64,000 bases of DNA from Deltaproteobacteria bacterium (GTDB lineage Bacteria; Desulfobacterota; Desulfarculia; Desulfarculales; Desulfarculaceae). Below, piece after piece: positions 6,389-43,561 of this stretch. Where the stretch lies: contig JAJZPI010000001.1 of the NCBI GenBank assembly GCA_021811275.1, positions 1 to 64,000 on the forward strand. Reading direction: 5' to 3'. The notes beneath the pieces were generated by a model. It had not been told where the DNA came from, made no database searches, and saw only the letters and a list, made by a program, of their open reading frames with translations. Position 1 is the stretch's first letter; every line of letters begins with the position of its first letter. Both the position numbers and the translations under genes were made by a program.

Positions 6389-7744
<1,356 letters not shown>

Positions 7745-7800
7745 GAAGGAAGGAAAATCAATTCATTTACGATCCTTTCTTACTGCCTTGTGCATTAAAA

Positions 7801-9189
7801 TTACAGCAGTCCAACCCTCCTGACGTTCTTATAAGGTACTCCTGCAACATATTGAAAATCATCAATCAAACCATCAGGCAGTCCTATTTTCTTTAAGACA
7901 TAAGAGCGCATTATAACTTCTAATAATTTTGCAACGATATCTATATGCGCTGCTTGGTGGTGTGGTTTTTGAGGATGTACAGTTTTGCTCCTTAATTGAG
8001 ATATTTTTATCCCAATATCTTCGTAGGACGTTTGTCTAGTCAATTGCAGATATTTTTGTAGCATTTCCTTTATGAATATATTGGTATATTTCTCGAATAT
8101 ATTTTTTGTGGGCGAGCATTGATATTGCTTATCTAGTTGCATCATATAGTTGATCGCATCATAATTCCTTGATAAATGAAAGTGTGTAATGCGGCTATCG
8201 GCCAGATTAGACCAATAAGTATTTATTATCGGAGCTAGCACACTATATTTGCTAAACCAATTATTTATTAGGTCAGGAAGCAGGCCAACAATTTTTGGTA
8301 CGGTAGTGGGGTGCTGCGTAAAATCAAGTTCTTCTCCCGTGGTAGGAATTAGGTCTTGCCTAATTTCAGAACTTGGGGTCAATAATGAAAAACTCCTTGT
8401 TCTGCCTGTACTATCGCTTTCTTCAATTAGCAAATCAATGTTGACCGGTATAATTGGAATGCCAACCATAATAGACAGCAGTTGTCCTAGTTTTTTTGAC
8501 TCTTCAATGTAGCTTGAAAGTATATTAGCTGAGAATAGCGTATTACACTCAAACTCGATATAGCTAACCAGTGAGTCTAGCTTCTTGAGGCCAAACCATT
8601 GTTGATTATCATGGCATGATTTTGCCAACTCATTTACTATGTTTGATAATTTATTCAGAGTGTCATCGGGACCAAAAAAGTATTTGCTAGCTTCAAACGT
8701 TTCAAATATTGGCGAAAAGCTATTCGCTATACCAATAGTAATAGAATTATGTTGGGGGCGTACTATTTTTATTGGCAAACAAGAAATATCTGTATATGCA
8801 TAACCCAAAGGCATGACATAGCTATCCAGCAGATTATATTTCACTCTAATTGATTTCAAAACACTGTTTGCTGTACTTGCAAATGATGAACCAATAATAC
8901 AAAATAGATATTCCTGTATTTCATTCGTATGGAAGTGTGTGAAGCCGCCAATGCGTGATATACCGCCGAACATGCTTATGGCATGATTTTCCGAATAAGC
9001 ATACAAGTCTGTTTTTTTGTTCAGCTGCCCGGGTAGTGATGATTGTAGATTGTGATGTCCCGGGTGTATTAGATTGGCTTTAGTTAACCTAAAAGGCTCA
9101 TAGACAATATACCCTCCACAATCCTTTTCCCCATCGATTGCGAACGTTGCTGGAAGGTAATGCTTTTCAAGTAGGCTGTATTTAAACAT
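7801..9189 (-). CDS. Putative HEPN-domain (ApeA-like) protein; candidate antiphage gene
   Basis: Single long ORF (ORF track 7801..9222; likely start at MFKYS, 9189) in a strongly AT-rich patch; N-terminal GxI..L…beta-rich layout; C-terminal RSKTVH (R-x4-H) at 7975-7992. Confidence 0.6.
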   Translation of the reverse strand: MFKYSLLEKHYLPATFAIDGEKDCGGYIVYEPFRLTKANLIHPGHHNLQSSLPGQLNKKTDLYAYSENHAISMFGGISRIGGFTHFHTNEIQEYLFCIIGSSFASTANSVLKSIRVKYNLLDSYVMPLGYAYTDISCLPIKIVRPQHNSITIGIANSFSPIFETFEASKYFFGPDDTLNKLSNIVNELAKSCHDNQQWFGLKKLDSLVSYIEFECNTLFSANILSSYIEESKKLGQLLSIMVGIPIIPVNIDLLIEESDSTGRTRSFSLLTPSSEIRQDLIPTTGEELDFTQHPTTVPKIVGLLPDLINNWFSKYSVLAPIINTYWSNLADSRITHFHLSRNYDAINYMMQLDKQYQCSPTKNIFEKYTNIFIKEMLQKYLQLTRQTSYEDIGIKISQLRSKTVHPQKPHHQAAHIDIVAKLLEVIMRSYVLKKIGLPDGLIDDFQYVAGVPYKNVRRVGLL

Positions 9190-9315
9190 AATACTAATTT
9201 TTAGCCATGACTTAGCACGCAATAGATCGTTATGGCGTTAGATGGCTCTATAATTAGGTACCCCTTAAGCATTCATTACAGCACACAGATAATGTTTCGC
9301 AAGAGTCTAGAGTTC

Positions 9316-9379
9316 ACACCGGCACGACCACCGGTGGCCTGAGCAGCAAATCCACCGCCTCGCGGGCGCAGGCCTCCAG
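9316..9379 (-). pseudogene. Diverged duplicate of the helicase gene 3' end (…ACAREAVDLLLRPPVVVPV)
   Basis: About 60/64 nt identity to 10491-10554; encodes the same C-terminal peptide. Confidence 0.85.
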
Positions 9380-9398: not shown

Positions 9399-10409
9399 TT
9401 ACAGCCCACTAAGATACTTCTCCACCCGGTTGGCCGCGTTTTCCTGAATATTGTAGTAGTAGAACGGGTAGTCGAAGCTGTGGTAGACGCCCCGGCCGAA
9501 GATCGCGTGGCCGGGGGCGTATTTGTCCTCATCGGCGGTGCTGCAAACCAGGACGCCCTTGGCGGTGTCAACCTGGGCATCCGCGTAGTTCATGACTTTC
9601 AGGAAGTTCCCATCGGAATCCAACACCACGCTTCTGTCCGGGTTCAACATTATGGACCCCAGATTCTGTGAGGCCGAGGCGAGGGTTTCGTCCCTGGTCC
9701 AGGTTATGGGGTTTATGGCCAGCGCGCCGCTCAACACCACGGGATTGGTTCCCGGTACGGTATCGGGGGCCTGCGTGTTGTACGAAATAATCACGCCCGT
9801 GTCGTCGGCGCCTTCGGCGAACTTCAAATGCGGATTATCGGCAAGGTACGAGGTAGTAACCGAGTATCCGATAACATAGGCGGCGATCATCCTGGCGTAC
9901 ACGTCCGGATGCGTTCCCATATAGTCGGACAACAGGTTGATCAGGACATTGGAGCCTTGCGAATGTCCGGCCAGGATAAATGGTCGACCGTTGTTGTAGT
10001 AATTGATGTAGTAGTCGAAGGCCGCCGTCACATCGGAGGTTGGCACGCCTGCCACCACGGTCGGGAGCACGTCCGCCGGCAAGGACAGGTCCACCTGCCG
10101 GTAATATGGCGCGAAAATATTGCCCACGGTTTCAAATGCCGTAGCTTGTATGTTAAATGCCAGACTTGCGCCTGTCAGCATGGACGCATTGTCGATTTCG
10201 CAAATGTCGGGATCAGATGCGTTAACCTTTTGCCAGGCGGTGGGATACACGTAAAAGACATCCACGGCCTTGTCGAGCGTCACGGGCAAGGACAACCAAT
10301 ATTGCGTTTTTGAGTAATCAATAGCGTCGTATCCCGATGCGACGCCGGCCGCCAAGGAAATAATTAACAAAATAGATATATTAACTAGCTGGATTATTTT
10401 TAAGCGCAT
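9399..10409 (-). CDS. DUF3089-type alpha/beta hydrolase, secreted
   Basis: Signal peptide; VDVFYVYPTAW; nucleophile elbow PFILAGHSQGS; LVCSTADEDKYAPGHAIFGRGVYHSFDYPFYY. Confidence 0.8.
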   Translation of the reverse strand: MRLKIIQLVNISILLIISLAAGVASGYDAIDYSKTQYWLSLPVTLDKAVDVFYVYPTAWQKVNASDPDICEIDNASMLTGASLAFNIQATAFETVGNIFAPYYRQVDLSLPADVLPTVVAGVPTSDVTAAFDYYINYYNNGRPFILAGHSQGSNVLINLLSDYMGTHPDVYARMIAAYVIGYSVTTSYLADNPHLKFAEGADDTGVIISYNTQAPDTVPGTNPVVLSGALAINPITWTRDETLASASQNLGSIMLNPDRSVVLDSDGNFLKVMNYADAQVDTAKGVLVCSTADEDKYAPGHAIFGRGVYHSFDYPFYYYNIQENAANRVEKYLSGL

Positions 10410-10488: not shown

Positions 10489-13293
10489 CTACACCGGCAC
10501 CACCACCGGCGGCCTGAGCAGCAAGTCCACCGCCTCGCGGGCGCAGGCCGCCAGCGCGGGGTGGGTGTCGTGCAGGCTGATGATCTGCCTCAGGTTGTCG
10601 GCGGTGCGGTAGATGAGGTTGGCCAGGTCGCCCTCGCCCGCGCCGTAGATCATGGCCACGTCCGTAAATTCCGAGCCCAGGCCCCAGGCGAAGACCGCGC
10701 TGGCCGCGGGCTGAGGCATGACCGGGGTCTCGAAACCCCACTGGCGCAGGCGCTCCAGGATGGGGTCCAGGGTGCGCCGCAGGCTGAGCAGCCCGTCCTG
10801 CAACCGCTGGCTCAGGTACGGCGCCTCCGACTCCCGCTCGCGGTCATCCACGAACAGCGCCACCAAAGACGCCAGCAGCACCGGGTCCTGCTGGGGCAGG
10901 GCCTCCTGGCGTATGGCCTCGGCGATGAGCACCGGCTGGTCCAGACGCAGGTTGCTGGCCCAGGCTCCGTCGGCGGTGAGCCGGCCTTGCGCGTCCACGT
11001 AGCCCTCGGCGCGCAGAAACTCCAGGTGGCGCACGAAGTCGTACCAGAAGGCGTGGCTTTCCTCCTGCACCTGCATCAGCAGGGCCTCGGCCTGGTTCAG
11101 AAGCTCTGAAAGCTCCTGGCCGCCGTCCAGGCAGGCCTCGGCCAGGGGGCACTCGGTGCAGACGATGCCCGTCAGCTCCTCCTCCACCGAAGTCAGGCGG
11201 CTCTCCACCTCCGTCAACTCGCGCTGACCCAGGTCGGCCAGGTCCGGGGCGGCCAGCGGCCGGGGGGTGGCGGGAATCTGATCCAGTACCGCCTGCGCCA
11301 GGGAACGGCCGCCGCCGGCGTGGGGCAGGTCCAGCACCTCCTGAAATACCCCGGCCACCTCGTCCAGGGGCACGAAGTCCAGGCGCGGCCGGCCTTTCTG
11401 CAATCGCCGCTCGGGAGTCAGGCTCACGGCCAACACCCCCGCCTGCTCGCCCTCGCCCTCGCGCCGGAGCACGGCGCCCAGCGCGCCGAACATGTCCATG
11501 AAGACCCGCCCGCGGGTAAGCGCGGCCCAAATTCCACGGCGGCCGGCGATGGCCCCCTGTTCGCGCTCCAGCCGCCGGCGCAGGGACTCCAACTGGCGGC
11601 GGCGGCGGCGGCGGATGACGGCTTCCTCCGGGCCGGGGCAGGCCGAGCCTTTCAGGGCCCGGGCCAGGGACTTGAGCACCTTCTGCGGGCCGGCCTGGGA
11701 GCGGGGCCGGCCCTCGGCCTTCTCCAGGCGCTGGAAGGTGGCCAGGCTTTGCCCCAGGAGCTGCTTGACCTCGGCCGGGCGGTGGGAGAGCAGCAAGTTG
11801 AGCACCATGGAGAAGTTGATGGAGAGCTGGCTCTCGATGGGCTCGGGGCTGGAGGCCAGCAGGCTGGCCACCAGAGGCACGTTGTTGAAGGGCCCAGGCA
11901 CCACCAGGCAGAAGCCGATGTTGTCCATGCCCCGGCGGCCAGCGCGGCCGGTCATCTGCAACAGGTCGGTGGCGGTCAGGTCGGCGAACTCGCGGCCGTT
12001 GAAGCGGTCGCTTTGGGTGATGACCACCGTCCGCGCCGGGAAGTTCACCCCGGCGGCCACCGTGGAGGTGCTGAAGATGGCCTTCAGGAGGCCCCGCTGC
12101 ATCAGCCGCTCGACCAACAGTTTCCAGAGCGGGAGGTGCCCGGCGTGATGGGCGGCCACGTGGTGGCTGCGCAGATAGGACAACTGGGGATGGGTGGCTA
12201 GGAAGGGATAGCGCTCTACGTAGTCATCGACCAGGTCGTTCAATGCCTGCCGCTGGGCGGCCTCCACGCCCATGCGGGCCGAGGCCGCGTAGGCCAGGGC
12301 GTTGTCGCAGTCGGCGCGCGACTTCAGGAAGAAAATGGCCGGCAGCAGATCGGCGTTGTCCAGGGCGGTGAGGATGCGCCCGAAGGGCGGGACGTGCTGC
12401 AAAGGCCCGCGGTGGCGGGCCTGGCCCTCGGCCTCCAGAAAATGGGCCACCTTGGCGAATACGCCGCGGGTGGTCGTCAGGGGAGCCAGTTCGCCGTCGG
12501 GGAAGAGAAAGAGCGGGGCCAGAGGCACCGGGCGCTGGTCGCTCAGCACGGTGGCGCAGGGCTCGCCGCGCACGTACTGCAGCCAGCGGGCTATCTGCTC
12601 GGCGTTCTCCACCGTGGCCGAAAGCAGAAGCAGGCGCACCCTCACCGGCAGGTAGATGATGACTTCCTCCCAGACCACGCCCCGCTCCGGATCGCCCAGG
12701 AAGTGGGCCTCGTCCAGGACCACCAGGCCGGCGTCGATGTCCTCGCCCCGGTACATGGCGTCGTAAAGCTGGTTGCGCAGTATCTCGGTGGTGCCCACGA
12801 TGAGCTGGGCCTGGGGGTTTTCCTTGCGGTCGCCGGTTAGAATGCCCACCCGCTCCGAGCCGTAGATTTGGCCGAACTCGGCGTATTTGGAGTTGGAGAG
12901 GGCCTTCAGGGGGCTGGCGTACCAGGCCCTTTGCCCGGCAGCCAGGGCTCGGCTTATGGCCTGCTCGGCGATCCAGGTCTTGCCGCTGCCGGTCGGCGCA
13001 CTCACCACCACATCGGTCTGATCGAGGCCCCGCACCGCCTCGACCTGGAAGGGGTCGGGCACGAAGGGCTTGGCCTCGGGCACGCCGATGTGACGGAGCA
13101 CCGGCTCCAGCTTGCTGTTCACGCGAGGCATGAAGGGACGGGGGGCTTCCATGGACCTGCGTCGGCGGGCCGGGGCCTCGCGTGGCGCGCGGCGGGAGGG
13201 CTTGGAGGAACTGCGACGACTTTTTCGCGGGGGGGGCGTCAAGGGGCTCTCCTTGTTTGCCCACATGCTACCTGATCGTCCGGTGCCCGGCAA
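10489..13293 (-). CDS. DEAD/DEAH-box helicase, Ski2-like
   Basis: SAPTGSGKTWIAEQAI, VVLDEAHFLGDPERG, LLLSATVENA, FSTSTVAAGVNFPARTVV, QMTGRAGRRGMD; true start may be at MWANKE. Confidence 0.9.
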   Translation of the reverse strand: MPGTGRSGSMWANKESPLTPPPRKSRRSSSKPSRRAPREAPARRRRSMEAPRPFMPRVNSKLEPVLRHIGVPEAKPFVPDPFQVEAVRGLDQTDVVVSAPTGSGKTWIAEQAISRALAAGQRAWYASPLKALSNSKYAEFGQIYGSERVGILTGDRKENPQAQLIVGTTEILRNQLYDAMYRGEDIDAGLVVLDEAHFLGDPERGVVWEEVIIYLPVRVRLLLLSATVENAEQIARWLQYVRGEPCATVLSDQRPVPLAPLFLFPDGELAPLTTTRGVFAKVAHFLEAEGQARHRGPLQHVPPFGRILTALDNADLLPAIFFLKSRADCDNALAYAASARMGVEAAQRQALNDLVDDYVERYPFLATHPQLSYLRSHHVAAHHAGHLPLWKLLVERLMQRGLLKAIFSTSTVAAGVNFPARTVVITQSDRFNGREFADLTATDLLQMTGRAGRRGMDNIGFCLVVPGPFNNVPLVASLLASSPEPIESQLSINFSMVLNLLLSHRPAEVKQLLGQSLATFQRLEKAEGRPRSQAGPQKVLKSLARALKGSACPGPEEAVIRRRRRRQLESLRRRLEREQGAIAGRRGIWAALTRGRVFMDMFGALGAVLRREGEGEQAGVLAVSLTPERRLQKGRPRLDFVPLDEVAGVFQEVLDLPHAGGGRSLAQAVLDQIPATPRPLAAPDLADLGQRELTEVESRLTSVEEELTGIVCTECPLAEACLDGGQELSELLNQAEALLMQVQEESHAFWYDFVRHLEFLRAEGYVDAQGRLTADGAWASNLRLDQPVLIAEAIRQEALPQQDPVLLASLVALFVDDRERESEAPYLSQRLQDGLLSLRRTLDPILERLRQWGFETPVMPQPAASAVFAWGLGSEFTDVAMIYGAGEGDLANLIYRTADNLRQIISLHDTHPALAACAREAVDLLLRPPVVVPV

Positions 13294-43203: not shown

Positions 43204-43561
43204 GGGGGCGACATGGTTTCGACGGGGATGGTTGCGGTCCAAGTTGCATGTCGGGGGTCTCTCCGGCCCGTAACCCGGGGGGAAAAAAAGTAAGCGCAGA
43301 CGATTACGCTTACGCCGTAGCCGCGTAAATAGGCTACCGTCCGCCCTGCCCGCTTCCGCGGGGCAGGAGCCGGGCGCCGATTAGCGGAATAGGGAACGGA
43401 CGCCGCCTCGCAGGTCCGGGACCGAAAACAAATGGGAGGCTGGCCAGTCGGGCACCCTGTCCGTGGGGGGCGCGAAAGGCGAGATCAAAGCACGGAATAA
43501 GCATGTAGAAGCTTGGGCCAAAGATCTTCGGACGGGGGTTCGATTCCCCCCGCCTCCACCA
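43204..43561 (+). ncRNA. ssrA: Transfer-messenger RNA; tag ORF 43296-43328 encodes ADDYAYAVAA*
   Basis: 5' GGGGGCGACATGGTTTCGACGGGGAT; 3' GGGTTCGATTCCCCCCGCCTCCACCA; pairing acceptor stem; tag reading frame ends in AA-TAA. Confidence 0.97.

Follow-up and report, generated by a model that had tools for sequence, protein, structure and literature searches.

A Probable ApeA-Type Defence Gene, Highly Diverged and Alone in an AT-Rich Islet beside Two Core Genes

Results and Discussion

A single gene fills the AT-rich islet at positions 7745-9315 of the window (the whole stretch of 64,000 nucleotides that was analysed), and this gene is a divergent variant of ApeA rather than a new system. Judging from the sequence, we put the probability at roughly three in four that this horizontally acquired gene specifies an ApeA-type defence effector, strongly diverged and working alone, that acts as an infection-triggered HEPN RNase. 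The gene is of interest because it stands so far from the known family and because it sits at what looks like a hotspot of foreign inserts.

Composition and Coding Content of the Islet

The islet lies between an NtrC-type response regulator gene (6389-7744, plus strand; assigned by sequence) and a repeat of the end of a DEAD/DSHCT helicase gene (10489-13293, minus strand), both of them conserved core flanks. An earlier note on this DNA had described an abrupt drop in GC content after the stop codon of the regulator (position 7744), and this was borne out: GC falls from 0.69 at 7251-7750 to 0.35-0.39 at 7751-9250, and recovers after about 9300. The islet as a whole has a GC content of 36.9%, as compared to 66-70% in the surrounding core genes, and third-position GC is 0.34 in its ORF vs 0.93 in the regulator and 0.90 in the helicase. 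This composition is foreign to its surroundings, and the ORF was most likely acquired by horizontal transfer.

One minus-strand ORF fills the islet, with zero internal stops. It encodes 462 residues from an ATG at 9189 (7801-9189) or 473 residues from a TTG at 9222 (7801-9222); this intact frame is the one of about 460-473 residues that had been noted before. The ATG start suits ApeA proteins better, because a YLP stretch then falls at about residue 12, roughly where ApeA proteins have their WLP motif. No second gene, partner ORF, tRNA or known RNA family was found within 7745-9315, in agreement with the earlier observation that no toxin or antitoxin partner is visible.

Homology to ApeA

In Pfam, the sole match of the islet protein was HEPN_Apea (13.6 bits, E 0.093, residues 383-450 of the 473-residue form), below that family's curated cut-off of 24.4 bits. 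ApeA_NTD1, for which a canonical ApeA protein scores 208 bits, was not reported by hmmscan against Pfam. In the PADLOC library, matches were confined to the Cas13-ApeA (E 3.2e-4) and PDC-S58 (E 1.3e-3) families, with E-values ranging from 3e-4 to 2e-3. Because canonical ApeA strongly matches these same PADLOC families (up to 6e-96), all informative library matches are to the ApeA family. A scan of NCBIfam returned no match, and the PHROGs scan returned only a match at E 0.33 to a family of unknown function. Ordinary annotation would probably label this ORF a 'hypothetical protein'. The range of ApeA-type defence genes extends far beyond what current libraries can detect, and defence-gene surveys may therefore under-count them.

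Profile comparisons were made with ApeA proteins collected from plasmids, phylum relatives and GTDB genomes. An HMM built from 92 of these proteins gave the islet protein 25.3 bits (best of 3,000 shuffles, 6.5 bits) over three colinear segments at residues 95-129, 224-331 and 419-444. The middle segment alone reached significance individually, and the last, a C-terminal helix, was sub-threshold. In hhalign, comparison with the 92-protein alignment scored 51.2 over residues 96-332, as compared to 16.2 +/- 2.1 (maximum 21.9) for shuffles, and the single sequence matched a set of 13 ApeA proteins, collected without use of the catalytic motif, with a probability of 92% and an E-value of 5.6e-7. 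When parts of the protein were aligned alone, the N-terminal 222 residues did not rise above shuffles and the last 130 residues did so slightly (23.2 vs a maximum of 19.3). From these whole-protein and part-protein scores, homology is firm for the middle of the protein and follows from colinearity for its ends.

Read from N to C terminus, the match covers the second half of the N-terminal domain (from residue 96), the linker, the start of the HEPN domain and the sub-threshold C-terminal helix. On this profile evidence, the islet protein is homologous to ApeA, and the two are colinear from midway through the N-terminal domain up to where HEPN begins. The earlier note had proposed an ApeA-like N-terminal region followed by a C-terminal HEPN domain; the colinear match above shuffles supports that arrangement, whereas the first ~95 residues agree with ApeA_NTD1 in layout only.

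The resemblance to ApeA (ApeA_NTD1 PF18862 plus HEPN_Apea PF18739; PADLOC Cas13-ApeA and PDC-S58) extends beyond these scores. Like ApeA, the islet gene is a stand-alone gene of about 460 codons with no partner, and its product combines a predicted beta-rich N-terminal region with a predicted HEPN domain that carries an R-x4-H in register and an NNW...Y..L.P..N.Y stretch at its start. The ApeA genes that we examined were mostly solitary, encoded ~460 residues and often had lower GC than their surroundings; 25 of 37 ApeA loci had no close neighbour on the same strand. The islet protein differs from ApeA proteins in its pairwise identity to them of 11-19%, in its score below the Pfam cut-off, in its N-terminal ~95 residues, which are hardly recognisable, in extra residues before the linker, and in departures within the HEPN domain that are considered below.

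Predicted Structure

AlphaFold2 was run with the ApeA proteins as alignment, which could steer the model to the family fold. It predicted both the beta-rich N-terminus and the helical C-terminal half that the earlier note had read from the sequence, although the N-terminal half was of low confidence. The model of the whole protein reached a pLDDT of 61.8 and a pTM of 0.66, its helical C-terminal domain being better formed. The predicted beta-rich region comprises residues 1-222 (8524-9189, minus strand), of which residues 95-129 are in register with ApeA_NTD1; the GYIVYEPFRLTKANL segment begins at residue 26 of the islet protein. The predicted HEPN domain comprises residues 285-462 (7804-8337, minus strand) and, modelled alone, reached a pLDDT of 76 and a pTM of 0.75.

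Structural comparison, which the earlier note had suggested as a check, pointed to the HEPN fold without reaching significance. In a search of the PDB with the model of residues 285-462, the HEPN structures 2hsb (probability 0.84) and 4nqf (0.44) ranked first, with no E-value below 0.5. Lower matches included 7bxo, from a toxin-antitoxin system, and 8yuf, a HEPN toxin, none of them significant. Foldseek of the whole-protein model gave no significant or usable match, and a sequence search of the PDB copy found no solved ApeA structure. The ApeA assignment is supported by three routes, namely the library matches, the 92-protein profile and hhalign comparisons, and this non-significant ranking of HEPN structures.

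The HEPN superfamily is broad, and the structural matches range over several kinds of HEPN protein, toxins of toxin-antitoxin pairs among them. This might suggest another HEPN RNase with a use unrelated to ApeA, either the toxin of such a pair or a housekeeping RNA-processing factor. We consider this very unlikely, since sequence profiles favour the ApeA models and since the colinear match already sets in within the N-terminal domain of ApeA, ahead of HEPN. Toxins of toxin-antitoxin pairs (PDB 5yep, 7bxo) are weak structural matches that have the HEPN fold predicted for the islet protein, but the islet holds no antitoxin gene and its protein has a large N-terminal region ahead of the HEPN domain. 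The absence of the gene from relatives argues against a housekeeping role. The Cas13 and Csm6 HEPN effectors share the logic of an R-x4-6-H RNase and differ from the islet protein, which has one HEPN domain and no known guide RNA; neither a CRISPR array nor a cas gene was noticed in the vicinity of the ORF. Cas13 effectors have been proposed to descend from ApeA as their putative ancestor (PMC7699616).

Catalytic Residues and Departures in the HEPN Domain

The motif RSKTVH, which had been singled out as the R-x4-H signature of HEPN RNases, is present at 7975-7992 on the minus strand (residues 400-405 of the 462-residue form, 411-416 of the 473-residue form). In the alignment, R400 and H405 fall on the R and H of RNYLTH, the near-invariant pair of ApeA, and form a candidate catalytic site. 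Because the 13 aligned proteins were too diverse to yield a scanning pattern, a narrower set of six proteins was used for the scan. As the TRNYLTHY pattern of that set biases motif conservation, we counted the motif separately in the unbiased 13-protein set, in which 12 proteins keep both R and H. An R-x4-H within six residues of this place also appears in 1.4% of composition-preserving shuffles; the motif alone is thus modest evidence, and the profile evidence carries the case.

Several features of the domain depart from ApeA. The glutamate of the FLxLxxxLE helix (helix 2), which all 91 of the aligned ApeA proteins possess, is replaced by Gln351 (8137-8139, minus strand) in a MAFFT alignment whose placement at such low identity may be shifted by one or two residues. 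The residue after the catalytic Arg is Ser in the islet protein and Asn in ApeA, and much of the helical SLxxRLK segment is missing, including its conserved Arg. Non-catalytic HEPN domains have been described (PMC3710099), and one ApeA relative (L014) is without R and H. These observations are consistent with an ApeA descendant that no longer has RNase catalysis, whether its gene is now decaying cargo or its product binds RNA without cutting it. We regard such a descendant as rather unlikely, given that the 462 codons are intact, the length of ApeA is kept and the R-x4-H is in register. Moreover, in three canonical relatives (L059, L067 and L084), R, H and E persist although most of this helical segment is absent; loss of the segment alone therefore does not amount to inactivity.

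A homologue this diverged points to parts of the sensor and of the active site that may be dispensable. It could also represent an undescribed ApeA-like clade, in which a differently built sensor and changed surroundings of the active site (Gln in place of Glu, a shorter HEPN domain) would serve another infection signal or mode of regulation. This idea seems to us possible but doubtful.

In L014, the relative without R and H, the HEPN_Apea protein has 503 residues (556-2067) and carries GNMLSD in the place of R-x4-H; judging by these residues, its catalysis has probably been lost.

Proposed Mode of Action

ApeA itself is a known anti-phage system (Gao et al.), a protein that acts alone and cuts RNA. 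HEPN RNases act as metal-independent homodimers, many of them with an R-x4-6-H site (PMC3710099, PMC13405049). It is on these two grounds that we favour a one-gene sensor-effector, an ApeA-type RNase triggered by infection. The C-terminal HEPN RNase would be held inactive by the beta-rich N-terminal region as long as no signal, derived from the phage or caused by it, is bound. Once activated, HEPN domains would pair, and R400 and H405 would form a metal-independent RNase site. Cleavage of cellular and phage RNA by this RNase may then stop both growth and the phage burst. Of these steps the trigger is the least certain, since no part of the protein has diverged more than the N-terminal region; according to a 2026 preprint, ApeA proper is activated by deoxydinucleotides.

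Distribution and Insertion Site

The islet gene has no copy in 62 other genomes of its class, nor in the remaining genomes of a phylum sample of 395, and HEPN_Apea proteins above the cut-off occur in only six of these 395 genomes. Two weak matches from the phylum search were rejected as homologues, one being a histidine kinase (L003) and the other an intergenic frame (L004). No close homologue turned up in plasmids, phages, IMG/VR or, by 8-mer patterns, GTDB species genomes, although pattern-based scans reach close relatives only and moderate homologues may still exist. Likewise, no close homologue was found in a sample of the class to which a Halomonas genome belongs or in a sample of the phylum to which a Flavobacterium genome belongs.

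The earlier note had considered that the same ORF might be conserved at this locus in close relatives with ordinary composition; this was looked for and none was found, and congeners are without the islet DNA. In one congener (G057), the regulator and helicase genes are convergent and enclose two genes, one for an aldo/keto reductase and one other of ordinary GC. In a second (G055), the two core genes lie on separate contigs. Downstream of its helicase end is a TIR-domain gene of 39-42% GC (L125, 7312-8385; PADLOC TIR-TM, E 2.8e-26), and downstream of its regulator end is an AT-rich ORF of 289 residues (L126, 6699-7568) with no Pfam or PADLOC match, a candidate unknown cargo or defence gene. 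With the caveat that the ends in G055 are on separate contigs, the ends of the regulator and helicase genes in this genus look like a small hotspot at which foreign DNA, in part defence genes, has inserted one gene at a time. If the hotspot holds, the site could be mined for further single-gene islets.

These neighbourhoods also bear on whether the islet and its resemblance to ApeA are real. The host genome consists of 245 contigs and identity to ApeA proteins is low, as would fit foreign DNA misjoined in metagenome assembly or a chance resemblance. Both are highly improbable: the profile scores lie far above shuffles, the islet boundaries fall at gene ends and none inside genes, and in a congener the ends of these two core genes are likewise bordered by AT-rich single genes.

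At the islet edge, positions 9316-9379 repeat 64 bp from the 3' end of the helicase gene, with 94% identity to the native copy at 10491-10554. This direct repeat looks like an integration scar that restored the end of the helicase gene. Between both repeats is a gene for a DUF3089 protein of 336 residues (9399-10409, minus strand; about 54% GC), probably an insertion separate from the islet.

Elsewhere in the window, GC content is 0.60, below the window average, at a tmRNA gene (43204-43561; tag ADDYAYAVAA), and dips again at 38-39 kb (0.53), 41-42 kb (0.58) and 49-50 kb (0.58). The tmRNA region and these three dips are possible further islets.
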